Assembly (NCBI GenBank): GCA_037043015.1
Contig: CM073321.1
Coordinates: forward strand, 28,199,010 to 28,263,009
Length of the DNA: 64,000 nt
Reading direction: 5' to 3'
DNA from: Bryum argenteum
Taxonomy: Eukaryota; Streptophyta; Bryopsida; Bryales; Bryaceae
Shown here: positions 18,101-53,900 of the stretch, in pieces
Numbering within the stretch: the first letter of the stretch is position 1
Layout: each line of letters begins with the position of its first letter
Made by a program: the position numbers and the translations under genes
Notes under the pieces: generated by a model
The model's input: the letters and a program-made list of their open reading frames with translations, nothing else
Databases searched by the model: none
What the model was told of the DNA's origin: nothing

Positions 18101-18190
18101 ATGCAGAAATTGGGTTCTCAACAGGGTCCAAGCAATGACCAAAGAGCTTCAAAGGCACCGAAGAAACAGCACTGCAGTTAGTGCTCTTGC
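15188..18190. repeat. Three copies of a roughly 1057-bp higher-order repeat
   Basis: Rare variants such as GGTGACTCAAAAATACC, the ATAGGGATTCAATGGCACCG unit and the AAGTACTCTTATCGAAATTG unit recur at lags of 1057-1058 bp, about six satellite units. The block is not a multiple of three, so copying shifts any reading frame. That argues against selection on an encoded peptide. The third copy carries local irregularities near 17480 and 17650. Confidence 0.8.
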
Positions 18191-18637
18191 GGAAACTGGT
18201 GAATCAAAAATACCATGCAAACGAGGCACTGATTAGCCTTAAATGGCACCACAGAAACAACGTTGCAGCTAGTACTCTTGCAGAAATTGGGTTCCCAACA
18301 GGGTCCAAGCACTCACCAAAGAGCTTCAAAGGCACCGAAGAAACATCACTTTAGTAAGTGCTCTTGCAGAAACTGGTGACGCAAAATACCATGCAAAGCA
18401 AGTACCGAAAAGCCTTAAATGGCACCACAGAAACGACATTGCAGCTAGTACTCTTGCAGAAATCGGGTTCTCAACAGGGTCCGAGCAATCACCAAAGAGC
18501 TTCAAAGGCACCAAAGAAACGACATTGTAGTTAGTGCTCTTGCAGAAACAGGTGACGCAAAAATACCATGCAAAGCAAGCACCGAAAAGTTTTAAAGGGC
18601 ACCGCATAAACAACATTGCGGCTAGTACTCTTGTAGA

Positions 18638-20210
18638 ATGATGTCTTTGGCAATGTCTAGAAACTACATAGACAAAATTAGTGGAATGCCTTATGAGCAA
18701 GGAGTTGTTGCATGGAGAAAGGAGTTGCACTTGTTAACAAGAAAGCTTGATCCCACTGTAGGAAACATCAATCCTTATCCACCGGGTGCTGTAAAAGAGG
18801 TTGCTCACTGGATACAAGAAACTTAGGAGTATAGTGCGCCCATCAACAAAGAATATCTGAAGGATGTTGTTGTTCGTGGCGTGTCCTTGAAGCGGTCAGG
18901 TCTTTGGAGGATGATTTGAAAGGCTAAGATTTGCAGCATTATTGATGTGGCCCGAACCAACTTTGAAAGATCAGACTCCTTAAGAGAAGTTGGAGTGTGC
19001 GATAGACTTTGGCAGAAGCTGAAGAGTTCATCCGAGCCTTAAGAAAATAGTAGGGAGATGGCTAGGGACAAGGGGTACAACGGCCGCAGTAAACACTGTA
19101 AACCATTGGATAATCTCATGCATGGCAGTAGAAATGAACGTGTGGATTTGCGGAGTGACCACATTTCCAAAACTTCAGGGGAGCCTCAGATAGAATCCCC
19201 TTGTACCTTCTCAAGTCGAGGAGAAACGTCTACCAATATAGGAGTGCAATTCCATGATAGCAGGAACTCGTTACTTCTTCCAAACAACAACACTCCCTCT
19301 AGAGTGTCGACGATCATTGAAGAAGAAATTGCATGACACTCCCTGGTTTTGAAGATGATACAAAGGCTGGAGGCGTTGGAGGGCAAGAAATCGCAGATCA
19401 TAGCATAGAATGAGGTCGTGCTTGCAGAAAATGACGCAACAAATGGAATATAACAACGCAATCTGGTAGAGGAGGACCAAGTGGAACAAAACATACATGT
19501 AGAGAACCCGATTGCTATGCATGTACAAATCTTGTAAAATTTTAGTGAATCTGTGAGTTTCTATAGTCAATGTAAGGTGAGGCAGAACTCAGTTACTTAG
19601 AATAATATTAGGTAAGTGCTAGGATCATATTTCGTTTCAAAATATAGTTAAATAGTTTTTTGTGATGTAGCAGGTACAAGTGGAGACGATGGAGCCGGCT
19701 TCAACGCAAACAAAAAGGAAATTTAGTCGCCTGAGGAAGAAAGCCAAGTGGTCGTAAAAGGTAAGGAACTTAATTCCGATGTTTTCCATAAATTTGCTTG
19801 GAAATGGTACATAACATGCATCACTGTTTTTAAAATTCCTCTTTATGATGCGCTTGGGCCAAATGACGATTTGGAATTGCAAAGTAGGAGTACTCAAGTT
19901 TTTGTGAATTGAGAAGATCTGTTGCCTTCACTAAATTCAATGAAACTGACAATCTCTTGAGAAATAAAACACATATCCATTTTGCATATTCAATGCTAAT
20001 TGAGAGATTTGAAGCAAAGAGAAACCTTGAATGAGAGGTATTACTCGATGCTCACTTCCAATTTGTGTAGTTAAGATTCAAGCAGTTGAAGCAGGAAACG
20101 ATGCACTTCGTGCTGGAAGATAAGGAAGGAGCCAATTTCAAAAAACACGCAACAGAGTAGCAGGGGGAGAAGGCAGGAGATAATTTATTGATTAGTTTTG
20201 GCGTGGATTA
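18638..20210 (+). pseudogene. Decayed multi-exon gene of unknown function at the satellite edge
   Basis: A single plus-strand frame starts at ATGATGTCT (18638) right where the satellite stops and runs to about 19345 with coherent protein-like content (Y-I-D-K-I-S-G-M-P-Y, then W-R-K-E-L, then P-Y-P-P-G-A-V-K-E-V). It is broken by TAG at about 18824, TGA at about 18918 and TAA at about 19040. Fragments after a possible intron ending in TAGCAG at about 19671 read F-A-W-K-W-Y-I-T-C and D-A-L-G-P-N-D-D-L. A charged tail-like segment lies near 20080-20170. I do not recognise a domain. The stops fit former CAG, CGA/TGG and CAA codons. Whether the start codon is original or created by the junction is unknown. 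Confidence 0.4.
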
Positions 20211-30660: not shown

Positions 30661-31120
30661 GTTGTGATATAAAGTCCGAACATCAAATTACCTATTGAGC
30701 CAATTTTGGGTTGATGGCCACGGAGATAATCTACTATTTGACTTCCATCCGTAGGTAAAGAAGCTATTCATGAAGAAACTGGGAGGTTTTCAACACAAAG
30801 AAGATATGCGGGCCAATGTTGCAAAAATTAATGCAAACACTAAGCTGCAGGGATTGCCTCAACCTGATTTGCACGGATTGTAAGTTGCTAGTAGCCATGA
30901 GAGTACAACTCTATCGTGGAACAGATGAGGGAGATCAAGTTAGGAAAAAAGGACGCTACATTACGTTTTATGATGGAAGAGGTGCAAGTGGTCCAACTTT
31001 GTGGATTGCAAGACTTCATGGCAGAGTACTCTAGGGTCTTTGAAAAATTCAAGACCTGCCCTTTATCCAAAAGCTGGCGAAAGGATGAAGCACAATAGGT
31101 GCAAACACTGCGGGCGTACT

Positions 31121-31610
31121 TCGGCTCTAACGGCGCCTGACTGGGGCGTCGGCGCCCGCCCCAACGGCAGCCTGAAAGAGCCGGGGCGGCAAGCTCTGGC
31201 CCGCCTTGCCCCGCCCGCCCGAAGGCACAGCACGAGGTCTCCTCGTCAATTGGAGTTGGCTTCCCCGGCGCTGGTTCCTTGCCGTCCCTCGCCTCTAAGG
31301 GCGGGACAGTGAGGGACTTGCGCTTCACTGCCCGCACAGGCTCTCTTGCCCGCCCGTCGAGCCCGCAAGTCGCCGCCCTCCCTCAGCTCAAAGACCAGCA
31401 CCAAGTCTCCGGCTCCGATCGCTGCTCGCTAGTGTCGTTCGCCTGCTCCAAGCCCCGCTCCTGAGCCGTTCGCCTGCCAGCCCGTTCGCTCGCTGCCGGC
31501 GTGGTGGCGCAGTCACGAGTAGGAGTATATCATGAGCACTTATAAACTCCATAGGCGCACCTCAAAGAATGCCCTCGTTGATACAGTAAAACAAAAACTT
31601 ACCGATAAAA
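31121..31610 (+). repeat. Outer TIR, left arm (Mutator-like style long TIR)
   Basis: The arm starts TCGGCTCTAACGGCGCC and is inverted relative to two stretches on the right. Bases 31121-31285 pair with 46036-46259, and 31285-31610 pair with 44850-45165 (for example CCTCAAAGAATGCCCTCGTT near 31560 against its complement near 44900). Identity looks high over hundreds of bases although I could not compute it. Long TIRs of this kind are usual in Mutator-like elements. A clean 9-bp target duplication is not visible at the ends (GGGCGTACT against GGGCGGGTG). Confidence 0.75.
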
Positions 31611-32651
31611 GTCATTGTTCGGAGAGCGAGAATGTGAAGCGCCGGCAGACATTCATGCCTGCTGCCAACTCATTTTCATTCGTTGCTAATCGCCATATTT
31701 AACAAAGGCTTCATGTCGGATGCCATGTATCTACGTTGTCTTCCCTTACACGTTTATTAGTGTAATACCCCTGTTTAGGTGACTCGTGTATCGTTCCAGG
31801 GATTCTATGAAGTGACCAATACCAAATAGTGCTAAGACAACCAACCACCAACCGTGCTATTCCCAAACTTATGTTTAATCTTGCTTGGCAAGGGTATCCC
31901 TTTGCAAGAGGGGATGCACAAAGACTCTTTCCCTTATGTTTACTGTGGCGGAAACCTCTACATCTAAACTCTACTTACACAAACACCCGCACTTAGGCAA
32001 GCATTACGTCCTCACAACTAATCCAACCAGGCCAGATTAGCGTGTCACGCAGGCCGTCCTGGTTGCCCTATCGCACTTACTACAATAACAAACTCCAGGA
32101 GATCCGAATCCGGCTAGAGGACGTCTTCACGTAATCCAAGTCTGTAGCTGTTGGAGGTCGGATTGGTATCCGGACTCGCAGACTTAACTCCCAGACCCTC
32201 CCAGACCGTAAGGTGTTTACCACAGGAGTTTTCCTCTCTCAGACACCTAGACCAGTTCAAGACACAAGGCACTCGCTAATACGCCCAACCCGACCTCAAT
32301 TCCACAGATACGATCTAGCAAGGAATCCGGATTCCTATCCCCCAACTTACAACTCAGATACAGTAGATATGACTTCTAAGCACTCGACCTCAAAAGGGAG
32401 ACAGAGCAAGGATCACACTGAATATGCGCATAAGAGGTTGTTGATTAACAAGTAAGGAATGTTTTAGGTGATCAAACATTCACCTATAAGTACTTCTAAG
32501 TCAACGGCTTAGGAACCTAACTAGATTGCGGCGCCGACCTACACGACCTACTCCACAAAAAGCGTCTTGCTTTTAAAAAGATCCTACCTACTGTTCTATT
32601 CAGACTTCCTAACCCTAGGCCGGATTCTAACTTACGGACTCGGAATCCGTC
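31611..32651. other. No gene recognised inside the outer TIR element
   Basis: About 1 kb of unremarkable sequence between the left TIR arm and the 3' end of the split minus-strand gene. It probably contains that gene's 3' UTR. I see no further ORF with protein-like content. Confidence 0.45.
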
Positions 32652-34256
32652 CTACCTCTTCTGCTTTGAGCTTAATCCATGCTTCGGCCATTTGAGGGGT
32701 GTTGCTGCAATCCGGCCCGCCTTGACTCTCTTGCCCGTGTCGGTTACAAACTCCTCGTCACTCTTGTCCTCTTCCGTATCAGCATTGCTCTTCAATTCCT
32801 CTTCTTCTGAGACGTTGATGCCGATCTCGTGGAGCTTCTGAGCGGCTGGGAATTTCTCCCATTCTTTGTTCCTAAGCCTCCTCGCCACTGAGCGGGTATT
32901 CTTGGCCGGAGAATCAAGTGGGCCGGCCTCGCTTTCCTCCATCTTCACCTTGCCCTTGGCCGGACTCAAAGGTCCTGCATCTGTCCTTTGAGCTTCGACT
33001 GGCTCCGCCTTCTTGACCGGAGTCTGCGCTCGCGTACTTGCGAAGGCCGGAGTTGAAGCCATCCCTCCAATCCGCTCGCAGACGGAATCCAACACCACCT
33101 TCACTTCGTTGTTGCTCTTCTTGATCTTAGTCAAGTAAATCTTCGCTGCAAGGAGGAACTTGCGGAAAGTCTCTGCCTTGAAGACTTCCGAGTGCAAGAT
33201 TCCGGCCTCAAACAGGTTTGCCTTTTTGAGGACCTCGGCCGGAACCTCACAAACCTCCACGAGTTTGACCACCTGCTCGTGAGCACATTGAAGTGCTTGT
33301 CGGCTGGTCACGAGCTCTTTTTCCATTTGTTTGACCGTCTTCCTCAAGCGTCTATTGTCGATTGTCAGCTTCGTGATCTCCCTCTCCAATTGTTGATACT
33401 GCTCCTCGGTCGGCTTGGACTCCCACTTCGTCTTCATCTCCAACAAAGTCTGCACTCCAAATTCCTTACACATCCTTGCAATCGGTTCCTGATAATGGAA
33501 ATAAGTGGTGCAGGCCTCAGTAAAATGATGCCATGCCTTCATCATTGGGTCCGGATGGTTTGGGGAGGATACGGCCAAACGGAGTCAGGGGTCGTTAGGC
33601 TGCATCGGAGTTGTCCAATCTGCTGTAACCTTGTAATCATCTCCGGCCGTGGAAGTTTGGCCGCGGTCGGTTTGAACTCCGACCGAGGCCGGACGCTCAG
33701 TAGGGGACAGGGACGAAAGTACGATTACCTCTGGTGCTGCTCATGGCGGGGTCACCTCGCGAACTGGCTCCTGGGGCGCTTCCGGCTGCACCTCTTTGTC
33801 CTTGGCTCCGGCCTCCTCTTCCTCATCCGAGGAGACAGCCTTGCTGTCTACGTCCTCCTCGGATTCAAAGACGCCGTTGTTTTGAGCCGCCAACGACATC
33901 TCATACGCCGACTCCTCTACCTCCGTTAGAACCTCCTCTTTGTGATACAAGGGGTAAATAAATGGGGTGATGGAGCTCGGATGGCTCTTACCCACATTCT
34001 CCGTGAGTCAGACAACAAAATCGCGGATGACAATCCCCCAATCTACCTCACGCTCTCCACGAAGCGAGCCCAGGACGGTGTTGGCAAGCCAGACGGTGAT
34101 ACAGTGCGGCTTTTCCGCATGTATTATCAGCGCCAGAAACATGACGACCGCACGCTCCCTCAGGTCCTTGCAGTCTTCCACCGCGTATCCGTTATTCTTG
34201 TGCGGCTTCCCGTGAAAGGCCGTCTTTGCCCACTTGTGTTTCTACCCGCATAACCC
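32652..34256 (-). pseudogene. Split gene of unknown function, C-terminal part
   Basis: One minus-strand frame covers this whole stretch with a few in-frame interruptions. In order it contains a hydrophobic globular region (L-A-L-I-I-H-A-E-K-P-H, V-W-L-A-N-T-V-L-G-S-L, S-S-I-T-P-F-I-Y-P-L-Y), an acidic linker rich in Glu/Asp, a coiled coil (Q-Q-L-E-R-E-I-T-K-L-T to K-Q-M-E-K-E-L), and a Lys-rich, acidic tail ending S-S-K-Q-K-R at 32652. The globular part reminds me of plant mobile-domain proteins carried by transposons, but I cannot assign it. Its N-terminal part lies at 43962-44269, on the other side of the 9.7-kb insertion. About four breaks in all. Confidence 0.55.
34249..34256 (+). repeat. 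Target-site duplication, left copy (CATAACCC)
   Basis: CATAACCC directly precedes the left TIR of the 9.7-kb element, and the identical 8-mer directly follows its right TIR at 43962-43969. An 8-bp duplication is the mark of hAT-superfamily insertion. If the final G of the element is counted as target, a 9-bp reading (GCATAACCC) is also possible and would point to a Mutator-like element. Confidence 0.85.
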
Positions 34257-34429
34257 CAAGGTTGTCATATCGGGCGTGTCGAGGTAATCGGGCGGACAAA
34301 ACGGACGTACGAGTTGTCTCGGACGGACGGGCGTGCCTGCCCACCTTGATTGTAGGGGGTGTGTAATTTTTGCATGGGTAAGAAACTTTGCAGTAAAAAG
34401 CCACGTAGGATATGAAGTGTAAGTCCATC

Positions 34430-34690
34430 GTGGTGCGGGGCGGGTGAAATTGTGCCAGGGCAGGTGAACTTTTGTTAGGGCGGGAGAACTTTTGAGGGGA
34501 CGGGTGAACTTTAAAGGGGGCGGGTGAACTTTTGAGGGTTCGGGTTACATTGGTTGCGGGGCGGGTGAGGGGGGGAGGGGGGTGGGTGAGGGGGGGAGGG
34601 TGGCGGGTGAGTGAGGAAGGGGGCGGGGGAGGGGGGGGGCTAGGGCGGAGGAGGGGAAGGGAAGGAAAGGCAGAGGAAGGGGGGGCCAGC
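34430..34690. repeat. G-rich subterminal minisatellite
   Basis: Repeats of GGGCGGGTGAACTTTTGAGG and shorter GGGCGGGTGAGGGGG units. The matching C-rich array lies at 43606-43790 near the other end of the element, in inverted orientation. Runs of three or more G with short spacers could form G-quadruplexes. Confidence 0.8.
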
Positions 34691-34949
34691 CTTGGCTCTA
34701 ACGGCGCCTAGGATCGGCGCCGGCGCCTGACCCAACGTCAGCCAGCAGTGACCGGGGCGGCAGGCTCTGGCCCGCCTTAGGCAGCCTTGCCCGCCCGAAG
34801 GCACAGCTCGTCCGCCCGCCCGAAGGCACAGCCTGCGCGCCGATCTTAGTTTAGATATATCGACTCAGTCGCTAGCACCTTGCATCAATCTGATCATCCC
34901 TATCAAACAATACAATACATCGATCCATAGGGCCGTGGCACCGTGACAA

Positions 34950-35310
34950 GTAGAACCAGAGTATGAAAGAACAGAAAATCTCACAAGCAGGGTTCCAATT
35001 GTTTCAACACAGTCACAACCCCGGAATGCATTGACGGGAAGGATCTTAAGTGTACTTACACCCTTCATTTCTAGCCAAAGAGAAAGCAAAAACAGAGGAC
35101 GATTGTAACGAAGAGAAATATGGACCAGGTAGTACCAGACTATAAGTGTACAGAATGTCAAAACTGAAATCCTCACAAGTAGGGTTTCAATGGTCACAAC
35201 AGAGTCGCTCCCGTCTGATCCGGATCCTTTGTCGGTACGGCTCTCACAGGGATCATTTCTAGCCTGGAGAAGGAGAGCAATAACAGAGAACGCTTGCATG
35301 TAGAGAAATG
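34950..35310. repeat. Two-copy tandem repeat, period about 180 bp
   Basis: ACCAGAGTATGAAAG (near 34955) and ACCAGACTATAAGTG (near 35134) head two diverged copies. Each continues with CTCACAAG-AGGGTT-CAAT, a CACAAC stretch, TTTCTAGCC and an AGAGAAATG end. It fills the left half of the 1.8-kb Pack-type element. The 144-codon minus-strand frame across it mirrors the duplication and is not called as a gene. Confidence 0.7.
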
Positions 35311-35706
35311 CACTTCAATCTCTTTATTATGTCAATTTTTCACATCAGATATGTTACATGTACAAAGAGCGCTACCGAATCACTCATTGCTTCCTCCACA
35401 ATAGCAGCTTGGGCCTGGGATTTCAGGATTTATCAACAGTTTTAAAGTTCATGCAAACTACCACCACTACTTCAGACGTTAACAATTCTTTCAGCTTTAA
35501 GCTCTTTCAATGAAAGAATACCATCTGTGTGATGCGTCCCGAGTGGAACTTACAATCCTTCGTGTGGCTCTGTCAATGGATGCTCGAAATAGATAGTAGA
35601 ACCCCAAGGCTTCGCAGTTCTTAGAAACTTGGACCATAGCTTGACTCGTCAGAAAATATGCAAGGCTGTTCCGAACCTAAACTAACGGAGTGTGCTGTGT
35701 CTGCAG

Positions 35707-36194
35707 AAACTATTCGGGTGTCGAGCCATGATGCTCGAGACAGTAGCCGCGGTTCCCGGGATGGTGAGCGGAATGCTCCTCCACTGCAAGTCCCTCCGCA
35801 GGTTTGAAACCTCAGGGGGCTGGATCATGGCCCTCCTCGAAGAAGCGGAGAACGAGCAAATGCATCTGATGACGTTCATGGAAGTGGCGCAGCCGAAGTG
35901 GTGGGAGCGTGCGCTCGTGTTCGCAGTGCAAGGCGTCTTCTTCAACGCTTATTTCTTCCTCTACCTCGTTTCCCACCGTCTTGCGCATCGCGTGACGGGG
36001 TACCTTGAGGAGGAAGCCATTTGGTTGTACACGCAATTTCTGAAGGAGATTGATGCGGAGAGGATCTCGAATGGTCCTGCTCCGGCTATTGCTATCGACA
36101 TCGGGCGGCTCCCGAAGAATGCTACTGTGAGGATGTTGTGATGGTTGTCAGGGCTGATGAAGCTCATCACCGTGATGTCAACCATTTTGCAGCG
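35707..36194 (+). pseudogene. AOX: Alternative oxidase, single internal exon (captured fragment)
   Basis: AOX is the non-proton-pumping ubiquinol oxidase of the inner mitochondrial membrane. Visible motifs are [43 protein letters not shown] and G-Y-L-E-E-E-A-I. These include the Glu and His residues that hold the di-iron centre. The last motif, [12 protein letters not shown], is present but one base out of frame: a single base is missing at about 36131-36133, giving a stop at 36139-36141. The exon is 488 bp between CTGCAG and GGTACG, one base short of the 489-bp third exon I recall for plant AOX genes. The usual I-D-Y-W-R-L-P reads I-D-I-G-R-L-P. No upstream exons and no short final exon are present. 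Confidence 0.88.
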
Positions 36195-36473
36195 GTACGC
36201 TCTAGCTCCATCCTTTCTCTCTAATGCTCACACATTCATACTTTTCCAACAACCGCACCTAAAAGGTGAAAGCTTTCTACAGAAAATAACAAGTAAAAAA
36301 CCCTGGCGCGGAAGATCGGCGCATGCGTTGTGCCGGCGGGCGGGCGGACGGGGCTTTGTGCCTTGGCGGGAAAGGCAAGGTCGCCAAGGCGGGGGAGAGC
36401 TCGCCGCCCCGCCATCGCTGGCCGATCTTTGGGTCAGTCTTGCGCGCCGATCCTAGGCGCGTTAGAGAGCCAA

Positions 36474-36930
36474 GGGGAGGCGAGGGCGGTGGAGGAGGAG
36501 GCACGGCGGGAAAGGGGGGCACGCAGGGAGGGGGGGCACGGCAGGAGAGGGGGGCACGCGGGGGGAGGGAGGGGCACGGCATAGAAAGAGGAGGGCCACG
36601 GTGGGGGGGGGTTAGCGGCGAGAGAGGGGGTTAGAGGCGGTGGAGGGGGGGTTAGGGGGGGGGGGGGAGGTTACGGGCGGGGGGAGGGGGAGGTTACGGG
36701 CGGGGGGGGGGGAGGTTACGAGCGGGGAGCGGGGAGGTGAGGGGCAGGGGAGGGGCGGAGGTTAGGGGCGGAGGAGGGACAGAAGGAGGGGAGGGAGAAG
36801 AAGGGGGAGGGGGAAGGGGGCGGTACGAGAGTAAGCGGGGGTAGGGCGAGGGATAGGGGGAGGTAGGGAGAGAGGGAAAGGGGGGGAGGTGGGATAGGAG
36901 AGGGGGTAAGCGGTAGTAAGGAAGGTTGCT
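36474..36930. repeat. G-rich array next to the Pack-type element
   Basis: Purine-rich repeats such as GGAGGTTACGGGCGGGGGG and GGGGCAGGGGAGGGGCGGAG. It continues the type of sequence seen at 34430-34690, so the Pack-type element may have inserted into one long G-rich array. It ends in an AT-rich stretch (TTTTTTAAATTTTTAAAAAT) like the one after the arrays at 41040-41400. Confidence 0.75.
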
Positions 36931-36980
36931 GCGTTTTTTAAATTTTTAAAAATCTTTTTAAATAAAATGTTATTTGAAAG

Positions 36981-37262
36981 AGAATCAAATAAACATAATA
37001 CCACCCACCAGTATATTCCTTAGTCGTAATATAAATTTTGAGCGTAAAATCAAATATATGATTAAACCATTAGGATGATAAATTTATTTGTAATATAGCG
37101 TTGGGAAAAAGAATCAAATAAACATAATACTACCCACCTGTATATTCTTCAGTCTTAATATAAATTTTGAGCGTAAAGTCAAATATATGATTAAACTATT
37201 AGGATGATAAATATATTTTTAATATAGCATTGGGAAAAGAATCATATAAAAATAATACAAGG
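36981..37262. repeat. Tandem repeat, period about 129 bp, 2.2 copies
   Basis: GAATCAAATAAACATAATAC recurs at 36982 and 37111, and a truncated third copy (GAATCATATAAAAATAATAC) begins at about 37239. The AT-rich unit also holds CACCCACC and AATATAAATTTTGAGCGTAAA. Confidence 0.85.
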
Positions 37263-37462
37263 TGGAATTGGAGAGAAATAGCACACATTTTAAGGTCATT
37301 GTTTTGGGATGTGGTAGCTCGAATTTGAAATAGAGGATAAAAATTGATTTGTGGTGGGGCAAATTTGAATAAGAGGGGGAAGAACGGAAACTTCAATTCT
37401 TTTTTTCCTTGGATCCCCCCTTGGCCCCTTCTTCCACCTACGGGGTATATTTAAGGTAATGA

Positions 37463-38280
37463 AGTCCAAACATTCCTCCCTAAAGCCGATTTTGACTTTC
37501 TCGGATATAGTGGGGGAATGTTTGACTTTTCAACGATTGAATTGACTATGCCTTCCCTTCCCTCCTCTTTTATCCCCACTCCTCTCTTTCTTTTCTTCTC
37601 CTCCCCCCTCCACCCCTCCACCTAACCCTCCACCTCCCCTTACCCCCTCACCCTCACTCCCCTCACTCTCCTCTTACCTCCTCCGACTTACCCCCCCGGT
37701 ACCCGTCCTACCCCCCCCGATACCCGTCCTACCCCCCATGATACCCGCCCTACCCCCCGTGATACCCGCCCTACCCCCACCGATACCCGCCCTACCCCCC
37801 TGTTACCCGCCCTACCCCCCGTGATACCCGATCTACCCCCCGTGGTACCAGCCCCTCCCCCCATAACTCCCCTCCCCCCATAACTCCCCTCCCCCCTCTT
37901 ACCCCCCATAACTCCCCTCCCCCCTCCCCCCACATAGTATTCTAAAATTTTTTGCATAAGTTTTTCTCATCTCTCTCAGCAATCTAATGTTTTGCAAAGA
38001 AGCATCATTAATAGAAAAAACAAATCCAAACATTCCCTCATTAAAGCCGGCATTTGGAGTATCCCGGATATAGTGGGGGGATGTTTGGATTTGCAATGAT
38101 TGGATTGACCATCCTTCCACTCCTCTTCCCCTTCCTCTCCTTCTCTAGTCTTCCCTCCCCACTCCTCCCTTTCTTTTCTTCTCCTCCCCTCTCCACCTCC
38201 CCTCACCCGCCCTCCCCCCTCACCCTCACCCTCCATCACCCTCACTTCCCCTCTCTCCCCCCTCACTTTGGATTGACATC
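37463..38280. repeat. C-rich tracts with two copies of a palindromic module
   Basis: A module of about 175 bp occurs at 37463-37640 and 38027-38200. Its first 65 bases form an inverted repeat: TCCAAACATTCCCTC at the start and, inverted, TCCAAACATCCCCCCAC at the end, around CGGATATAGTGG. The two modules enclose a minisatellite of roughly 20-bp units like CCTACCCCCCGTGATACCCG (37683-37915). The palindrome looks like a very short MITE-type sequence or element end. Confidence 0.6.
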
Positions 38281-38804
38281 CCCTACCCGTATGTTTATTT
38301 TTTTATTGTCCTATCATGTTCATGAGATATTTATTAGTTGTAACAAGATTTAAAATTATTTTTTCTCCGACTTAACCTACTTATCAAGCTAACCATACAA
38401 TGACACCATGATAATTAGCATTCACATGATCATATGATTATAACACATGCATAGAGTGTTCCAACAAGTTTGCAAGAGAAAAGCATATGTATTTTCAATA
38501 GTGTTTAACCATACAGAAAACGAAAAGTATATCTTGGTTGCTACTCAACTACGAAAATTTTCAATTAGTTCTCGTTCATCGCTGCACCGCTTGGGCCGGC
38601 CTCGGCATCATTTGTACCCTCCGGCAAATCTTCACCCCCGCCCAATTGAAGTCTACAAACTACTAATCAAGTCCTTCTCGCAGGCCCGTCTTCTTGTAAA
38701 TATTCCTCAGGATTTCGATTGTTGCATGGCTCAAGCATGCGTCCGGTTTGGGGACTATGTTGTTCCATCAGAAAATCAATGCTTCGATGGTGTAAAATGT
38801 CTGT

Positions 38805-40917
38805 TCAGTCGGATTCATCCGTTGCCCAGTTCATCTCGTAATCGCGGTCGGAACGCTCTTCCGACGAATACATCATTCCATCGGACTTCCAGTTTAGCCC
38901 TTCTGGATGAATCCGAAATCGAAACTCCTTGTGCGCTTTGTCCCAATACCCGTTGTAAACATGGTAGAAGAAGTTTCGCTTGCCATTGGCATTTGAGACA
39001 TTTGATGGAATTAAATGATGGCACGCCCTTGTAATTGTGTCCAGATCCCTTTCCCACCGAATTCGGGCGGCAAAAGCGCTTCTCTATAGAAGTGCAAGAC
39101 AATTTCCAACTCCATACCAAGTCTTCTCCCCATTTCCCTTTGTGTTTAGGAGCATTGGTTTCATTATACTCCCAATGCGGTGGCATGTAATTTTCTAATC
39201 CAAAAAGGTTGTACAAGCGCTTGTAGAAGGGAGATTTACATAGCGGACATCATTGTCGAACAACCATGAAGCCAATCAGGCAAATCGGATGAAACATGTG
39301 GCGGCAAGTGCCTACGCAAAATCCCCCTTCAGGTCCAAAGGGGTTGCAAGACATCGCACAATTTTCACCATTCGTCACGAACGTTGCTAGTGCAGGCCAC
39401 AGTTTGGCTGCTTAATTGATGTTCATCATGTTTTCAAAATCCCACTCGTACGGGACCCAATCAATTGTTTCATCCGGTTTTTTTGGCAATTTGTCCGAAA
39501 ACATCTCGTCTACAATTGCCCATGATGACAAACCAAATACCTGCTCTTGATTATGATCCTTCCATGTCCTATCAATCTTCCTCAACTCCTCAGCTATTTG
39601 GTCACCCTTGGCGACGGATAAAATGCATGTCAACTTCCACTAGTAGTATTGCTCTGCCATTTGATTCATTCGACTCTTCAAGACCTCATTATCTCGTCGA
39701 ACATCTACCAAATAAACTTCAAGGGGTGTTGCAGGCGAGCCTAATACCTCATTATCTGGTCGAACATCTACCAAATCAACTTCAAGGGGTGTTGCCGGCG
39801 AGCCTAATCCTTTGTTGAAATCTGCATTATCGAATGCCAAGGAGTCAAGCACACTTCCTATGACCAATCCGTTTGGACTAGTCGATGTACTAGGTCGTGT
39901 TTGTGATGTAGAAGCCCCCCTCCCCTTTGCCATGGCCCCCTCAAGCTCCATGATACGTCGTTGCTGAGATGAGATTTCGTCGCTAGCTCTTCGCATGTCC
40001 TCTTTCAGCCGTTGATTCTCTTCCTTCAAGCGTTGATTTGCTCCCATCAATTGCTGAATTTGGCCTTCTCTTGCATCAAAATGCTCCATCTCGACGGACA
40101 AATCTACTGGTGGAATTTCATCCGGCACGCCCCTAGCCACAACAACCTCCACTTCTTGGAGCTCAATGTCTCCACCAACTGCATGAACCATCTCCACATC
40201 TACTATGTCGGGAAGTAGCTGCACCGGAACTGGTTGTATTACTTGGGCCAATGAAGCCGTCGGCATAGGTTCTAATGATCGAGCTAGCCTCTTCCGCTTA
40301 TTCCTTTCCATCGTTTTGCGTCGAGGTAAAACTATCTCGTGGGAGCCATCGGAGTCGGAATCAGGCGGGAAGTCAGACATATGGTTATGAGGGTCTAATT
40401 CCGTAGGTCTGTCGGCCAAGGGAAACCACCCAGGATCTTCTACCGCCCAAGTTCCAAAGCCAGGGAAACCATTTTGTACTTGTGGTGCTCGAGCCTTGCC
40501 TTCTAAACCCTTCAGAGTAGACCAATCGAACCTCTTCTTCAAAATAATCTTCACATGAACGCCGCCCACTAAATATAACCCGACCTGGTTCTTGTTTGGT
40601 AACTTTGTGGCGTAAAGGAGTTGGTAAATTTGAAGACGTCGGGAAAGGAACTCCGGGTTGGTGCAGTAGCGCAAATTGGCCTTGTTGCTACTCAATTGTA
40701 AAACATGGCGTTCAGGCTGGAAGGATTTATCGATGGGGTACCACTCAAAGTATTGCTGTGCATGGTCAAAATCCCATGGGTCAGCTACATCTTCACAGCC
40801 TTTGAATGCCAATTTGAACGGATTATTTAACACATGTAGACGGGCCCGCTGCTATATTCCTTGTCGCACTCGATCTTTGTCTTTTTCTCCCTTGCGGATC
40901 GCACCTGGTGTCGCCAT
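38805..40917 (-). pseudogene. Decayed RING-finger protein gene inside the 9.7-kb element
   Basis: From ATG at 40915-40917 one minus-strand frame runs about 590 codons. After a globular N-terminus (N-P-F-K-L-A-F-K-G-C-E-D-V) comes an acidic/basic linker with a nuclear-type K-R-K-R-L cluster, then a coiled coil (N-Q-R-L-K-E-E-N-Q-R-L-K-E-D) and a 21-codon duplication (DNA 39685-39810, 63-bp units). Last is a RING-like domain: C-A-M-S-C, C-V-G-T-C-R-H-M-F-H-P-I-C-L, then C-P-L-C-K-S-P-F. RING proteins are mostly E3 ubiquitin ligases. In-frame stops lie at about 40852 (TAG), 39640 (TAG), 39412 (TAA) and 39262 (TGA, just before C-P-L-C, where Trp is common). Two frame changes follow near 39050-39090. 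The last segment reads F-Y-H-V-Y-N-G-Y-W-D-K and ends at 38805-38807. Confidence 0.7.
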
Positions 40918-41039
40918 CGTTGTAGAAAAGAAATTTAAAAACCTCCCCCAAATGTGCCCAAACACCTTCCCCAAACCCGAATCCAACCCTCACGAAGAGA
41001 AGTGAATCTTGGGAGCTAGGAAGGGCGGGTTACAAATAG

Positions 41040-41480
41040 AAAGTCCGCCTCTTATATAGTGATACCGGGAGTGGGGCGGGGGAGTGGGGGGGGAATAGGA
41101 CGGGGGAAGGAGGTTAGGGGGGTAGAGGGGGTAGGAGGCGGGGGAGGGAGGTTAAGCGGGGTAGGGGGCGGGGGAGGTTAGAGTAAGAGAGGGGTTAAGG
41201 GGGGTAGGGGGCGTAAGGGGGGATTGTAGTATTTTTAATTTTAATTTTACTTTTTTATTATTTTTAAAAATTATTTTTTATTAATTTTTAAAAAAATTTT
41301 AAAAATTTTCTTAGGGAAGAAAAAGGGGGGTTAGGAGCGGGGTAGATAAATGAGGGAGGAGTTAAGGGGGTAGGGGTGGGGGTAAGGAGGGTAGCGGCGT
41401 TCTTTACTTGTTTTTACTTTATTTAAAACTTTTAAAAAACTTTTTGTCTAATTTTTAAAAAAAGTATTTTTTTGATTTTT
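41040..41480. repeat. Two G-rich arrays each followed by an AT-rich tract
   Basis: G-rich text of the GGGGTTAGGGGGGTAGGGGG type at 41040-41225 is followed by AT-rich sequence to 41310. The same pairing repeats at 41325-41400 and 41410-41480 (GTAGCGGCGTTCTTTA then TTTAAAACTTTTAAAAAAC). The arrangement matches the end of the array at 36474-36980 in the same orientation. It separates the RING gene from the kinase-like gene and lies where the RING gene promoter would be. Confidence 0.65.
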
Positions 41481-41748
41481 TTAAATAAAATTTTTTCGTG
41501 GTATTTACAAACCGATTCATGCATAGGTTGAGTGGTATTTGGCATGGTATACAACCAGTAAATATGTGCACCCAAATCAAAACAATGCAATTAAATATGT
41601 CATACGAAGATGTACAAATGCATCGAATAAGAGAAGTTGCTGCATATATTATATGTATGTGCACAATTGGAAGTACATATAGTATTGTAATTATCCATGC
41701 AATCCTTCTACATACAATATGCACACGCTAACTTTGGAGACCGCTAAA

Positions 41749-43477
41749 TTAATTAGCTGAATTATGGAAACAACACATGGGCATGGTCCAACTAAATGGA
41801 TACTTTTCCAAGGCCTCAATAACATCGGCCACGGTCAACCTTTTGGACACATCTGGGTTCTGGAGGGCTTTTAATTTGAACCTAAGATACTCGTGATTCA
41901 TGGCGCGGTCTGTGCGATGTGGCATAAAATACTTCATATCGTAGTCTTCTTGCCAAATGTGTTGTGCTAACCACCCGGCGAAGAATGCATCGGCTGCGTT
42001 GGAATTTATATGTGTTTGCATTCCATAACCTCAAGGGGATTGTCAGAACCGCGTGGACCATACAAAAACCATGATTCCGGTGCCACAAATTTTCGCCATT
42101 TGCGTTCTTCATCCAACTCCTCTTGCTTCGCAAATCCATACTTGGATGGCGCTTGATCTACCACTCGACTTGAAATCCCCAATCACAAAGCCCGATGTAA
42201 ACCGTATCAGGTTTCCAATCATCGAAATGCATTAGAACATTGGTTGGAGTGATGTCGTTGTGTAGATAATTTTGTTCATGACACTTTTCCACAATGACAA
42301 GCAACGAAAATGCCAAGTCAAGTTGTCGTTTACGGAATGTTACAACCCAATGTAGTTGTATATCGGATAGCCCTAAGTTGAGCTCTTTTGGAATGTCGTC
42401 GTATTCCAAGTGCTTTGGGATTTTCCGATTGATATGGATGTCAAAATCTTTGTAGCTACCTCCGTTCCACCATAGCAAAAATCCATCCATTGTTCTAGGA
42501 TGCAACTACGATAGTCTGATGATTTCACGGTGCTTCATTGGACATCCACCAGCCTCATTTACGATTGCCATGCGCTTCTCCCTCTTGTTGTTCACATTCG
42601 TCAATTGTTTACGCGCGAATGGAATCCGACTATGAATATGTTGAAGTTTCGTAAGCACCACCTTAGTAACCTTCCCATATCCACCTTGGATACGTTGTCT
42701 TGGCATAGATACCACGGTAACGGTTGATTCTAGCCACTTGAAAGTTCCACTGTTGCAATGAGACATAACAACATCCTCGGCTTTTAATTTCCATCTCTCA
42801 TTCCTCTTCCCACGACCTTTCAAAAAGGATCGACCAAAACTTTTCACTATATCTAGCTTTGTAACTAGCTCTTCATCTTCAATTGTCCATTTGCTCTTGT
42901 CTGTCAATTTCTTCCCTGAAATATACGTCCAGGCGTCCACGGTGCTGGTAGTCAACTCTACCACTCTCAGGTCCAACCATGCACCGTGGTCATAGAAGTT
43001 GGTCCAATCACAAAGTTCGTAATTGTTTTCAAAACAATGCTCTAGGTATTGGTGAAGCTTCTGACACAAATTGTGGTATCCTTCCTCATTCGCCCAAATG
43101 TAAGACCTATGCAAATTTGGCATAGTTCGTATCTCATAGAAATGTATAGGATTCCGTTGAGCAAATTTAAGATACTCCTTGGTTGGCATAAGTGGTGTCT
43201 CTTCCTCCTGTAGCAAGATCAAATTGTTCTTTTCTGACCCCTTACTTTTTTTCTTTTTTCCCTTTCTTTTCCGTGATCCCGATGAAGAAGGGTTTGTAGA
43301 TTCTGTCCCCTTTGGAATTTCCTCTGTTTCCTCAGGACGTTCAAGGGGGGTTTCCAAATCTTGATTTCCGTGTCGCATACTCGAACCTTGGTTCCCTTCA
43401 CCCTCCATTTCGAATCTGAGAAAAAAACGGCAAAAACTCCTCCCTTGTGCTGATAAAACACCCCACCAAGTGCCCAC
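41749..43477 (-). pseudogene. Decayed protein-kinase-like gene with a long N-terminal region
   Basis: The likely start is M-E-G-E-G-N-Q at 43408; an upstream ATG in frame is at 43477. A basic Ser/Lys-rich segment (G-S-R-K-R-K-G-K-K-K-K) and an unfamiliar domain (I-W-A-N-E-E-G-Y-H, W-T-N-F-Y-D-H-G-A-W-L-D-L) precede kinase features: glycine loop Q-G-G-Y-G-K-V (about residue 274), beta-3-like F-A-R-K-Q-L, catalytic loop L-H-N-D-I-T-P-T-N-V-L, metal-binding C-D-W-G-F in place of DFG, and A-P-E-S-W-F. The C-lobe helix reads D-A-F-F-A-G-W-L-A-Q-H-I-W. A TAG at 42506-42508 interrupts the frame between the two lobes, and a frame change lies near 42020-42040 after the APE motif. The HxN/D-type loop (H-N-D) and DWG are unusual. 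Substrate unknown. The plant or element role cannot be told. Confidence 0.7.
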
Positions 43478-43605
43478 ACTAACTCAATGAAGAAGTAGTG
43501 CTTGGCAACTAGCGGAGTGAGGTGCATAATGAAACAACTTGGCTTTTATAGGGGAGGGGAGTGGGGGCACTTGGAGTGTGGAAAAGGAAAAGGAGGGTGG
43601 GCCCA

Positions 43606-43641
43606 ACTCCACCCCTCCCCCCCCCCCTCCCCCCCCCCCCC

Positions 43642-43676
<35 letters not shown>

Positions 43677-43790
43677 CCCCCCCCCCGCCTTGCCCCCTCT
43701 TACCCCCCCTGGACCCTTCTTACTCGCCCCGCCCCCTCACCCGCCCCTAACCCCTTTCACCCGCCCCTGTCCCGATCCTATTTTATACAG
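43606..43790. repeat. Poly-C tract and C-rich subterminal array
   Basis: A nearly pure run of C with scattered T (43612-43687) followed by units such as CCCCTCACCCGCCCCTAACC. It is the inverted counterpart of the G-rich array at the other end of the 9.7-kb element. Pro-rich open frames across it are artefacts of composition. Homopolymer length here is likely uncertain in any assembly. Confidence 0.85.
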
Positions 43791-43961
43791 ACGTGGCGGC
43801 CAAGTGGCTTGGTTTTTACCCAAACTCTTGCCACGTCCTCTTTTTTTTACCTAAACTAAAAGTCAACAGAAGTTTGACCGTATCGGGCGAGCGAGAGCTC
43901 AATCGGACGGACAAGGCGGACGGACGGGCAGGCGGCGTGCTCGCCCGGTATGACAACCTTG

Positions 43962-43969
43962 CATAACCC
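43962..43969 (+). repeat. Target-site duplication, right copy (CATAACCC)
   Basis: Identical to 34249-34256 and directly adjacent to the right TIR of the 9.7-kb element. It lies inside the coding sequence of the minus-strand gene that the element splits. Confidence 0.85.
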
Positions 43970-44269
43970 TACTCCGCTGTTTCGGATCAGGCTGTAAACC
44001 GCCCTCCAATGATAGGTCGTCCAGGTCGGTAGTTTGCCTCTGACCGTCCTCTCAAATTGGTTCGGCGCGCCGGTCTTTATCTCGCGCACCATCCTCGCAT
44101 TGCGCATTCCCCACGGGGTGCTTTGCATGCCGGAAATTCCCATCCTATCGAGGTCTTTGATCGACGCCTTCTTCTCCTCTCCCTCTGCTGAAATGGTCGG
44201 AAGTACCAACTTAATGGAGATCTTGAGCTCCTCCTGCGCCAGAGCGGAAGCAGAGGTCGATATTGCCAT
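43970..44269 (-). pseudogene. Split gene of unknown function, N-terminal part
   Basis: An ATG at 44269 opens M-A-I-S-T-S-A-S-A-L-A-Q-E-E-L and continues with a basic region (R-M-V-R-E-I-K-T-G-A-P-N-Q-F-E-R-T-V-R-G-K-L-P) and W-T-T-Y-H-W-R-A-V-Y-S-L-I up to the insertion point. Strand and frame agree with the part at 32652-34256. Upstream the frame stays open to 44458 with hydrophobic text that I take as 5' UTR read by chance. The family is unrecognised. Confidence 0.5.
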
Positions 44270-44849
44270 CGGGAAGAAAAATGACAAAAAGTAACGAGTG
44301 GCTGGGCTGAGATCAGCCAGAGGGCCGGATCGGAACAATAGGACGGAAAGCGAGAAAGCAGAAAGGAGGATTGCAAGAAGGCGAGAAAGCAGGAAAGCGT
44401 GAAGGCAGGTAACGACAAGAACGGACGGGTCGCGTTTTATAGGGAGGGTCGGATTCACATCCAGCCATCATAACTTGTCCGTCCGCCATCATGACCGTCC
44501 TCGTACGGAGCCGTCTTTGGCACTACGCGTCATTATTGTCCTTCCACCCACTCCGGCCTTTATCCGCCGTCTTTAAACCCTGTCCGGCTTCTGACAGTAC
44601 GTCCTTGCCGTTCGAGTGCGGAGTACGGGTTTATGAACACGTCTTTCTTATTTAAAACTACATTCTAAGGTTATCGTATAAATGTTTTAAACTTATTTGC
44701 CTTATAGTATATGACCTATCACATACTTAGGTCGGATTCTAGACACTATACTTATTCTTTATGCGCATTTATATATTTTGAGCACTCAATCAAAAAAACA
44801 GGGCCCGACACTTTACAGGAAAATGCTTATCACTACACGTGCATCAACT
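44270..44849. other. Upstream region of the split gene; no other gene seen
   Basis: About 580 bases between the split gene's start and the right TIR arm. It would contain the promoter and 5' UTR. AT-rich near 44640-44790. No motif is strong enough to call. Confidence 0.4.
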
Positions 44850-46259
44850 CTTGGAACAGTGACTTTCGTCGGTAAGATTCTGTTTTACTGTATCAACGAG
44901 GGCATTCTTTGAGGTGCAGCTATGGAGTTTATGAGTGTTCCTGCTCCTGGCTACGCCTCCAAGCCGACAGCGAGCGAACAGGGTGGCAGGCAAACGGCTC
45001 GGGAGCGGAGCTTGGAGCAAGCGAACGACGACAGCGAGCTTGGGGTTGGTCTTCGAGCTAAGGGAGGGCGGCGACTAGCGGGCTTGACGAGCGGGCAGGA
45101 GGGCCTCCGCGGGCAGTGAGGCGCAGGTCCCTCACTGTATTGCCCTTAGAAGCGAGGCTCGCCGTCTCGGTCCTTCCGCAACTTCGTCCACTCCATTTTT
45201 AAATCTCCCGCCCACGTCGTCATGCTCTTCTCTTTCGCTCATCTTCTCTTCCGCTTGTTTTCTCTTCCATCCCCCTTGCTTTTCCACGCCAAGGATTCTC
45301 CGATCTCTCATTGTCATTCCCACTCCCTGCCCAGTAATGATTTTTGGGTGCCACAAAGAACCGGAATGGTCTCTATCAATCATATGCAAGAGCATGGCAG
45401 TTTGTACACTTATAATTCCAGTGGAGAAGTGCACTTGAGTCTAAACGAGACATCTGAGTGTAAGCCCCAAGTTTTGAAAGGCCAATAACAAAAACAATCA
45501 ATATTTTTCATATTCTTTGTCAGAACTTCATCTAATTCTCCCCATTGAGCAGACTTCTATAGCCCAAGAATTTGGTCATACAATTCAATTTTCTTACTTA
45601 AGAACATCATAGCATGGTCTGATTTCAGTGTCTTGTTAAGGTTGCAGCGAACTGATTGTATCTACATGGGAAATGGTATTGTGGAATATGTTTGTTTCAG
45701 AAAGTGGGTTTGCAATTAACTCCTCTTATGCTCTCAACACTCTTTTTTTGCAAAGATTTGTCAGTGAATATACGTTCATTTTGGTGAGGTTGCTATCTCA
45801 CACCAAAGTTTGCCTTCTGGTACACGACAGAACGAGGAGCACTATTGAAACATAAAATGGTCCTATCGAGGAAGAACAAAAACAATCTGGACAAACGAGG
45901 ACCAGCGGCAATATAAGGACCAAAGTATGCAAGAAAATCATGCCAGTATGCGCATTGTCTGCAAGTGGGAGTTGAGACCGAAATAGAGAGATCTGCAATG
46001 GACGACGAGAGCTGCGCGGAGCTGGGCGGGAGAGAGGAAGAAGCAGTTGCGGGAGAACGACGGCGAGGAACCAGCGCCGGGGAAGCCAACTACGGTTGAC
46101 GAGGAGACCTCGTGCTGTGCCTTTGGGCGGGTGGGTGGGCTGTGCCATCGGGCGGGCGGAGCAAGGCTGCCTAAGGCGGGCCAGAGCCTGCTGCCCCGGC
46201 TCTTTCAAGCTGCCGCTCGGGCAAGCGCCGGCGCCCTAGCCAGGCGCCGTTAGAGCCGA
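44850..46259 (-). repeat. Outer TIR, right arm, interrupted by about 870 bp
   Basis: Bases 44850-45165 are the inverted copy of 31285-31610, and 46036-46259 are the inverted copy of 31121-31285, ending GGCGCCGTTAGAGCCGA at 46259. The 45166-46035 stretch has no counterpart in the left arm. It starts with CT-rich text and contains an open frame at 45222-45488 with exon-like content (F-W-V-P-Q-R-T-G-M-V-S-I-N-H-M-Q). Either something inserted here or the left arm lost it. I do not recognise its content. Confidence 0.7.
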
Positions 46260-46262
46260 GGG

Positions 46263-50948: not shown

Positions 50949-53900
50949 TTAGGGAACAGCTCCAGCGACCTCAAGGTTAGACATTGCAGCTGCAGCGGCC
51001 TGCTCGGGAATGACATGTGTAGTTGGTGGACCTTTCTTTGCATGTGACAACATCCCATGAGAGAACATGACAATGTTCACATTCACAATATGAGGAAGAC
51101 AAGGCTCTTTATGCCAACGGCGAGTCCAGCACTCTCTAGCGATGATCGATTTCCCTTCCTTCTTAGCTCGCATAGGGGTCCACCATTCAATCTTGAAATT
51201 GCCATAGGTAAGACCAGGTGTAAGATCAAGACACTCAAGGACTCGCCCCAGCCAGACAGGAAGGAAATGGTCGTCGCTCGGGCGGCATAAGACAAAGTCT
51301 CCAAGAAGCACACCACGGAATGGATTAAAGTTGAGCCTCGGTCGGTCTTTAGCAGGACCACAGTAAGGATAAGCATCTGCATCATCCTCAGGCGTAATGT
51401 TGTGTGAGTGAGAGGAACTAGATCCAGAATCGTGAGAGGCACGAGTATGATCACGAGTCCAGTCTGAAATAGGCCAAAATCCTTCAAAAAGAACGTCGGG
51501 GGTAGAAGGTAATGGTGAATTGATCTCCCGGTTGATACGCTCCGAGTAGCCAACAGGTCCAGCCGTCTCATCGCAGTATCATCTATTGCGCGCCATACCG
51601 GTCTTCCAGAACTCAATGAACTTAGATACACCGTCCTTGATGAATCCCTGTTTGTCATTGCACTCCGAGGCACAAGCTTGCTCCTTCACAGAGTTTAACT
51701 TGGTGGGGTTAACCTCCGTAACGCCCCATAACGACTTAAAAGGAACAAGACGTGGGTCGCCTTGTGGAATTCTAGGTCTTCCGAAGTCCACATCTTGACC
51801 GGGGGACCGGGTAGGAGCCATGACGAATCACTCGTTTTCCTCTTATACCTCATGACAGGCCAGCCACGATCGTCACCGTCCTCTTCAGGCCAGAACTTAC
51901 AAAGATGCATATCACCAAATCCAACAATTTTATTGACGTCGTCGTGATGAAAGTCCTTGACGTAAGATTTGAAATCTGCAACCTCTTGAACGAATTCAGG
52001 AATAAATGCGACTGTCTTCTGCGAGTCCATGAAAGCCTTCATGAGATTGCCTAGAACATACGTGTTTTTCTACTTGATGAGCTTGAAAAGGTAACTGAAA
52101 TGGGCATCAATATCCTCATGAGTGTGGCCAACAATCAGGAACCCAACAGTGACTTCCTTGAATATGCACCGAGCGGTCGGCAAAGAGCATAAGGCCATCA
52201 CAAATCTGTTGTTGTCTTTGGCGGAATTATCAAGCTGCAAGAAGAGCATATGCGGAAGCGGAACGAGCGAACGTCCTGGTTGTGGAGGACCAAATTGAGT
52301 CCCGGTGGCGGGTGGGATAGATGCGAAACACCTAGACTTTCCATGTAGCAAAGCTTGGAAGAAGTTGTTTTGTGGAGGTGTGGGAAACAGCTCCCGAGAT
52401 TCACGTACCGGTGGCTTCTCAAGCGCACGCAGTACACGACACAAGGAGAAGATTGTGAAGTTCGAATTACCCGGCCAGAGCGTTGTGGAGTAGTGCGCAT
52501 ACGCACCATCACCGTGGTCGTGAGTCAACATGCCTGTAACAGAAACCGGAATCTGTCCAAGGCCACCAGTGGCTTTTGTAATCCCCTGCACTCTGGGAAT
52601 GGCCGTCTTCGTGGTATCCATCTTGTCGTGGATTATACATAGAAACTCCGACAGGTTCTGGCAGGACTGGGAACTCTAGCCACCATAAATATGGCGGCAG
52701 GCACGCTGATAATTGAGATGGTGATTCCGGTCATCGACTAATGCCTGCCACTCACCACAGCCCCTTGGGTACTTGGATATGCACTTCACAAGGAAGTCGC
52801 ACTCAGTATACTTGGAGAAGCTGCTCCCAACAGCTTTAACCTCAACGTTCTTGAAGTGGTTCTGTCGAAGCTGACTGATGGTGGACTGGGAGACCGGCTT
52901 ATGGTGGCATTTGATATTCACCTAGAAGGCGGATATAAAGAAGGATGTCAATATCCTGGTCGACGCCTCCTATCGGCCGGCAGCCGACAGGAGTGCAATG
53001 AGACTAGCGGAAACTAATCGCTAAAGGAGTATCGGCTGCCAGCCAACAACTAACTCAACGACGACTGGATAAGCAACGACGGAAATGACCTTAGGTGGCA
53101 TAGTAAAATCGTCTAGTTAAAAACATCCGAAACATATCGACCAAGTGTATCAGCCGGCGGCGGACATAGAGGACAAAAAAGAAATAAGAATTATTGGGAC
53201 TTACTTGATTCACTTGCTCGCGCATTGTGTCCCAGTTGAGAGCAGATGGAACAACCTTCAGATTGTCAACTTGCTTATTTCCAATAAGCCTAAACTCGTT
53301 AGGCATCTGGTCCGCATTCTCGTCAATAATCTTCTGCAGGGTTGCTCTGGCCCTGAATCGTATGCGGGCGTGGACGTACTGCTCCAGAATTGCCATGCGA
53401 TCCGCTCACTGATCCACCCATTGCTGCGGCCTTGTAGACGTGGTAAGCTGATCTGGAAACACCGTGAATGATATACCAAGCGTTCTCGCAGACCTCAGCA
53501 TTCTCAAGCGTGATGAATTTCCTCCCTCTTGGTGCATGTACATGAAGTTGACTTTGAACGGCATACGCTATCTCTCTTCTAATTTCAAAAGAGCAAGCAT
53601 AGTACTTACGACGTAGAAAACGAGTAGACTCCCACGGAAATGTCTGGCAGCACCTACTCTTGCAGCACAACTGATAGCTAACCTTGCGAATCTCATCATC
53701 TGAGGTCTTTGATTTGAGCCTAGACCCAGTGGGCTGCTCCTTGGACAAGAGTCTACAACGAACGGACCTGGAGGGATTCCAAGGGACCCCCTCAAGTTCC
53801 GGATGGTCAAAAGTGCTGTTCTAAGTTGCCTCAGAGCATAGCATGACAATGTCAGAGAAGAGTTGACCGCCTTCAAGACAAGTTTGCAAAAGTGGCCACC

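Follow-up and report, generated by a model that had tools for sequence, protein, structure and literature searches.

Analysis of a 64,000-nucleotide stretch of the Bryum argenteum genome (the window, C1:28199010-28263009, contig C1 being CM073321.1) revealed that the 9705-bp unit at positions 34257-43961 belongs to a large, high-copy hAT family, of which it is a decayed and non-autonomous copy. A complete member of this family is a transposon with genes for a hAT transposase, a protein kinase and a RING-H2 protein between 20-bp ends, bordered by 8-bp target site duplications (TSDs). Very probably kinase and RING belong to the element itself and are kept by selection; the same pair was found in a second, diverged hAT family. 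The genome comprises 258.8 Mb in 25 contigs. The window copy is laid out as follows, in positions of the window:

34249..34256, left 8-bp TSD, CATAACCC
34257..43961, minus strand (the strand of its genes), hAT element of family 1, non-autonomous, 9705 bp
34257..34276, plus strand, left terminal inverted repeat (TIR), CAAGGTTGTCATATCGGGCG
34437..34538, plus strand, subterminal 20-bp tandem repeat, 5.1 copies
36476..36920, G-rich stretch of low complexity (limits judged by eye)
36976..37258, 129-bp tandem repeat, 2.2 copies (more copies in the 13.9-kb reference described below)
38565..40917, minus strand, RING-H2 gene, about 780 codons from its ends (ends by eye)
41749..43408, minus strand, protein-kinase-like gene (ends by eye; 552 codons from ATG in an open sister)
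43942..43961, minus strand, right TIR, matching the left TIR at 19 of 20 bases as an inverted repeat
43962..43969, right 8-bp TSD, an exact copy of the left one

A preliminary description, made from the window alone, had read 34257-43961 as one inserted TIR unit, and with 19 of 20 bases shared by its ends and an exact duplication of CATAACCC these coordinates proved to be exact. It had also proposed collecting further copies with the same ends, and such copies exist. With a left-end query of 144 bp and a right-end query of 162 bp, the best 40 of 483 and the best 40 of 419 candidates were scored, and among these scored end matches there were 20 convergent pairs, 4.2-17.8 kb apart, versus two non-convergent pairs within 25 kb. 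An exact 8-bp TSD was present in 12 of the 14 sisters in which both flanks were compared, its sequence differing at each of the 12 sites, while the remaining two (C9:1982 kb and C6:1901 kb) showed 4 and 5 mismatches. The full-length family-1 sisters that were read measured 12.8-15.0 kb and had in addition a hAT transposase gene, which in one sister is a single open frame of 1164 codons. Another sister's transposase matched the Pfam models DUF659 (113 bits, E 9.8e-33) and Dimer_Tnp_hAT (35.7 bits, E 7.3e-9, above the cut-off of 21.4), and the C-terminal region of the transposase weakly matched Hermes (E 0.04). The TIRs are of the type CAAGGTTGTC in family 1 and CAGGGTTGTC in the second family, both of which fit the short TIR consensus of hAT elements. 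Because 8-bp duplications, CARGG ends and a transposase with DUF659 and Dimer_Tnp_hAT occur together, family 1 was assigned to the hAT superfamily.

The window copy itself gave no match to the family-1 transposase query, so it is non-autonomous, as had been described; the statement that no transposase was recognizable holds for this copy, but not for its family, which encodes a hAT transposase in the sisters. Compared with the 13.9-kb sister at C4:2583 kb, the window copy matches positions 1-412 of this reference, resumes at approximately 4.9-5.0 kb and then continues through the right end, with an identity of 76-80% at first and of 87-88% across the last 6.5 kb. The skipped part of the reference contains the minus-strand transposase gene (reference approximately 1.1-4.6 kb), which is therefore missing from the window copy between its left arm and the G-rich stretch at 36476..36920. 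Since G-rich repeats flank the lost part on both sides in the reference, a deletion between two G-rich stretches is the likely cause of the transposase loss. The other genes of the window copy have decayed too: there are one in-frame stop and two frameshift runs in the kinase gene and five stops and five frameshift runs in the RING gene, so the copy is broken as well as non-autonomous. Pfam scores in this copy are weak (RING E 0.009, Pkinase E 0.0007) and clearer in open sisters. The subterminal tandem repeat at 34437..34538 possibly serves as a set of transposase-binding sites. A sister at C1:28272985-28282676, at a distance of some 30-40 kb, is 97% identical to the window copy in its RING region, also has a transposase match and a left end, and perhaps reflects a local hop.

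To describe the layout of the family, the match rows for the family-1 kinase (125), RING (118) and transposase (81) were merged into 89, 64 and 55 places, after seven divergent RING rows and three divergent transposase rows had been set aside as family 2; place counts for these genes, in both families, are among the matches listed. A RING match lay no more than 6 kb from the kinase in 55 of the 89 kinase places. In 48 of these pairs the RING gene lies downstream and on the same strand, which is also the arrangement in the copies read; in the other seven it is upstream on the opposite strand. When C1 only was considered, 38 of 66 kinase places had a RING match, versus a mean of 0.7 and a maximum of 4 in 300 random draws. 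Similarly, a transposase match was found no more than 16 kb from the RING gene in 38 of 64 RING places, all 38 being downstream on the same strand. The seven head-to-head places resemble the arrangement in family 2 and are perhaps a further sub-lineage or rearranged copies. Intact paralogs, for which the preliminary description had suggested a search, were also obtained: three copies have an open kinase frame, of 566-596 codons, and one copy has an open RING frame of 748 codons. Family-1 copies on C2, C4, C9 and C10 contain many 1-bp indels and few substitution stops; either the copies are decaying fast, or these repeats are unpolished in the assembly. The preliminary description had presented RING and kinase as captured cargo, with the alternative that they belong to the element should the same genes turn up in other copies. 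Because both genes recur in fixed order across the sisters, together with the transposase, the alternative is borne out and the cargo view has to be given up.

The family-1 kinase scores 36 bits with the Pfam Pkinase model, above the cut-off of 31.7 (36-43 bits across both families), and no alpha-kinase model was listed by Pfam for the element kinases at E up to 1. Among proteins of solved structure, VRK1 kinases are the closest in sequence to the family-1 kinase (E 4e-6); VRK1 is a nuclear chromatin kinase. The best PDB match of the RING protein is RNF24 (E 8e-4), and there are weak Pfam coiled-coil matches in the same protein.

The second family was recognized through matches of the RING N-terminus at 38-42% identity, which pointed to a locus at C1:449 kb. 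Here, a kinase 30% identical over 462 residues (E 6e-60) stands head to head with a RING protein that is 38-41% identical. When two family-2 copies were compared, homology stopped sharply at GACAACCCTG, the mirror of CAGGGTTGTC and near the family-1 end, and the flank beside this end is ATCTTATG. When the whole genome was searched for a pattern made of the opposite end plus this flank, there was a single match, 17.8 kb off and in the right orientation, and the reversed control gave 0. As the sole match of end plus flank in the right orientation, it defines the extent of the element:

C1:446463-464218, family-2 hAT element, TIRs matching, 8-bp TSD ATCTTATG exact

The TSD result for family 2 thus comes from one bounded element. 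Within it lies a decayed transposase, 45% and 35% identical to the family-1 transposase in two stretches (E 5e-99), with a DUF659 piece that stays under the cut-off of 34.7 bits (28.1 bits, E 2e-6). Three more transposase matches at 47-48% identity, one of them with a 1059-codon frame, are located 12.0, 12.2 and 27.2 kb downstream of a family-2 RING gene on the same strand. The family is abundant, with at least 97 match rows for the kinase (22 without internal stop) and at least 108 for the RING gene (30 without internal stop; both judged by eye, short fragments included). For the pairing, 92 of the 97 kinase rows and 103 of the 108 RING rows were used, second fragments being omitted, and in 65 of 92 places the two genes stood head to head. 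When only C1 was considered, 48 of 69 were paired, versus a mean of 1.8 and a maximum of 6 in 300 random placements. Because a second, diverged hAT family has the pair as well, the association of kinase and RING appears to be old.

The family-2 element (L066, L064, L067, L070, L069) also contains three further proteins or relics with the N-terminal domain of the RING protein, one of them open over 543 codons. No convincing Pfam or PDB relative was found for this domain, which is common to the RING proteins and the three paralogues. Additionally, both hAT families are concentrated on C1, with 69 of 92 places for the family-2 kinase (15.7 expected by length) and 66 of 89 for the family-1 kinase (15.2 expected by length). 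C1 may, as a guess, be a repeat-rich or a sex chromosome.

Between the two families, identity is 32% for the kinase, 38% for the RING protein and 45% for the transposase. In four family-1 proteins and one family-2 protein the kinase motifs GGxG, AxK (with the ATP lysine), HNDxxPxN, DWG and APE are invariant, and in one RING protein per family the C3H2C3 spacing C-x2-C-x14-C-x-H-x2-H-x2-C-x10-C-x2-C is identical, with all eight ligands. For family 1, codon alignments of 14 kinase, 8 RING and 8 transposase sequences were masked around indels. In these few, indel-rich copies with possible assembly errors, and with related sequences counted as independent, the ratio of nonsynonymous to synonymous substitutions shared by at least two copies was 0.26 for RING (binomial P-value = 4e-11), 0.38 for the transposase (P-value = 1e-5) and 0.49 for the kinase (P-value = 0.002). 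These low ratios suggest that the source lineages held all three proteins under constraint, and purifying selection on kinase, RING and transposase is supported at the level of the codon alignments. Pairwise dN/dS values from tblastn segments were rejected in favor of the masked alignment, because out-of-frame stretches inflate them.

Two other inserted units accompany the hAT copy in the window:

34690..36475, nested MULE-like (Pack-TYPE) element with approximately 160-bp inverted repeats 77% alike; its 9-bp flanks GGGGGCCAG/GGAGGCGAG match at 7 of 9 bases and lie in G-rich sequence
35535..36265, plus strand, captured AOX gene segment, frame disrupted near the end
31119..46261, outer MULE-like element, of the TIR family of the nested unit and bracketing the hAT element; its 9-bp flanks GCGGGCGTA/GCGGGTGTG match at 7 of 9 bases

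The AOX segment scores 185 bits with Pfam, and in a 733-column alignment it shows 95.6% identity with the AOX locus located within C6:13217200-13219300. Three AOX matches were obtained from the genome, namely the window, the C6 locus at 91% protein identity and a distant match at 27%. The left repeat of the nested element has 41 genome matches, its own arms included. Exact 9-bp duplications (GCTGCCCTG, GCAGGCCGG and ATGGCCCTC) were found in three of the four relatives read (L055, L057 and L058), while in the fourth (L056) the left end was not found, so no exact 9-bp duplication was obtained there. Judged by its TIRs and by the TSDs of its relatives, the nested unit is MULE-like. The hAT element is thus inside an outer MULE-like element, and an AOX-bearing MULE-like element is inside the hAT element. 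Because AOX sits in a nested TIR element with long inverted repeats of its own, it is not hAT cargo in the usual sense. Of the cargo listed in the preliminary description, all three pieces are recognized by Pfam (RING and kinase weakly, both genes being broken), but AOX belongs to the nested element. No convincing Pfam match was found for the seven open reading frames (ORFs) in the outer element and its flanks, one of which had weak matches, mostly to coiled-coil models below the cut-off. Elsewhere in the window there are a 16.5-kb tandem array at 2149-18638 (unit 177 bp, also fitted with 86 bp; strong AT skew, approximately 0.35) and a minus-strand ORF at 52073-52621 with DUF7869 (94.7 bits).

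On the whole, we consider it very likely that the window holds a decayed hAT copy in which the kinase and RING genes are standing, selected parts, the transposase was lost and a MULE-like element was gained. Several observations weigh against this explanation. Among the matches listed for family 1, 34 of 89 kinase places lacked a RING match up to 6 kb away and 26 of 64 RING places lacked a transposase match up to 16 kb away, and seven of the 89 kinase places showed the two genes head to head, unlike the copies read. Among those listed for family 2, 27 of 92 kinases had no family-2 RING match within 8 kb. The family-2 kinases were also not enriched near hAT dimer (PF05699) matches: among the best 150 such matches (C18 row omitted), only 6 of 92 kinases had one within 30 kb, all six on C1, where 7.6 of 69 were expected by chance. 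No single copy was shown with all three genes fully open, and many copies contain small indels, whose density reaches 15.5 per kb for one of the genes in a single copy. The RING models stayed below the Pfam cut-off for zf-RING_2 (22.5 and 25.9 versus 27.3 bits). Substitutions found in a single copy, expected to be near neutral, also gave ratios below 1 (kinase 0.68, RING 0.71 and transposase 0.64; P-value = 0.03, 0.06 and 0.007). Finally, the evidence is from one genome, and the mechanism suggested below for the pair is inferred from sequence.

The window copy alone, without a transposase match, would fit a non-autonomous vehicle with three separately captured genes; this is very improbable, as the sisters contradict it: they possess the transposase, and kinase and RING sit in them at matching positions. 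The AOX piece, moreover, is in a separate nested element. An assembly chimera with its two ends from different molecules might be suspected in a repeat-rich region in which indel-rich repeat copies hint at an imperfect consensus. However, the TSD is exact, the last 6.5 kb run collinear with a sister at 87-88% identity and there are 20 convergent end pairs, which makes it the least credible account of all. More substantial is the view that an ancestral hAT element took up kinase and RING from its host in a single capture and that both have since been mere passengers, in a Pack-TYPE-like manner. Transposons do capture pieces of host genes, the window copy has such an AOX piece in its nested element, and stops or frameshifts are present in many copies of both genes. 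However, both genes occur in two hAT families diverged to 30-45% protein identity with catalytic and zinc-binding residues invariant, a depth of divergence at which passengers should have decayed, and the shared substitutions point to purifying selection, with the lowest ratio in RING. We therefore regard passengers as improbable, and kinase and RING as parts of the element.

What the pair does for the element is less certain. The presence of kinase and RING beside the transposase in two distantly related, common families suggests that the element makes use of them. They might act on its own transposase or its partners, affecting activity, stability or cell-cycle timing, and not on host defence. 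The best solved sequence relative of the kinase, VRK1, fits such self-regulation, and in other transposons accessory genes often have a role in transposition itself, but a large RING protein with a coiled coil equally suits the binding of host targets. This possibility deserves serious consideration, although we would not expect it to be correct. Action of the pair on host defence is a real possibility, somewhat short of an even chance. In the preferred reading, family members presumably move by cut and paste, as their superfamily would imply. The window copy has lost its transposase, most likely by deletion between the two G-rich repeat stretches, and has taken in a MULE-like element with a host AOX piece, probably in this order. 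In intact copies, the kinase and RING proteins would be made and active, and most likely they would modify proteins limiting transposition. The kinase may mark a host silencing factor or transposase partner, which RING may ubiquitinate as an E3 ligase. In its most specific form, a giant plant hAT clade would have a kinase and RING-H2 ligase module, conserved in at least two families, which marks and destroys a host silencing factor; we put this forward tentatively and think it rather unlikely.

To our knowledge, few plant transposons carry conserved helper genes. Against this background, a kinase/RING pair in two hAT families points to phosphorylation and ubiquitination as a possible route by which transposons handle their hosts, and with the kinase and RING proteins defined, their targets can be sought. 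Furthermore, dozens to a hundred genes annotated as 'kinase' and 'RING' in such genomes may be transposon genes.

The open-access literature turned up no hAT element that combines a RING gene with a kinase of the Pkinase type; the search extended neither to subscription papers nor to Repbase, so novelty is unproven. With the hAT superfamily (Ac, Tag1 and Hermes) the present families share the 8-bp TSD, the short CARGG TIR and a transposase with DUF659 and Dimer_Tnp_hAT. While the usual hAT element encodes the transposase alone, they add conserved kinase and RING-H2 genes, with full-length copies reaching 12.8-17.8 kb. For the nested unit at 34690-36475, Pack-MULEs offer a comparison: it resembles them in its long TIRs, the 9-bp TSDs of its relatives and the host gene fragment inside, and differs in that its own TSD matches at 7 of 9 bases only. 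VANDAL transposons belong to the Mutator superfamily and so differ from the present elements in superfamily. They carry VANC anti-silencing proteins; the likeness is that of a plant DNA transposon with an accessory gene countering silencing, but VANCs are sequence-specific binders instead of a pair of enzymes (PMC5735166, PMC10398659). We do not claim the present elements as members of any known anti-silencing system.

In the text of PMC12730594, where the word RING is absent, two groups of elements are comparable. Fungal hAT7 and other TET/JBP-carrying DNA transposons combine a hAT transposase with the gene of a TET/JBP enzyme able to act on DNA methylation; hAT7 is thus similar in having an extra enzyme gene beside a hAT transposase, and different in its 7-bp TSD, its dioxygenase instead of kinase and RING, and its occurrence in fungi (PMC12730594). 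IS3EU transposons are likewise DNA transposons with a transposase and a kinase gene, but their TSD is 6 bp, their transposase is of another superfamily and their kinase is an alpha-kinase, in contrast to the 8-bp TSD and the Pkinase-type domain here (PMC12730594). Among the literature found, the hAT7 and IS3EU elements are the closest to the present families (PMC12730594).

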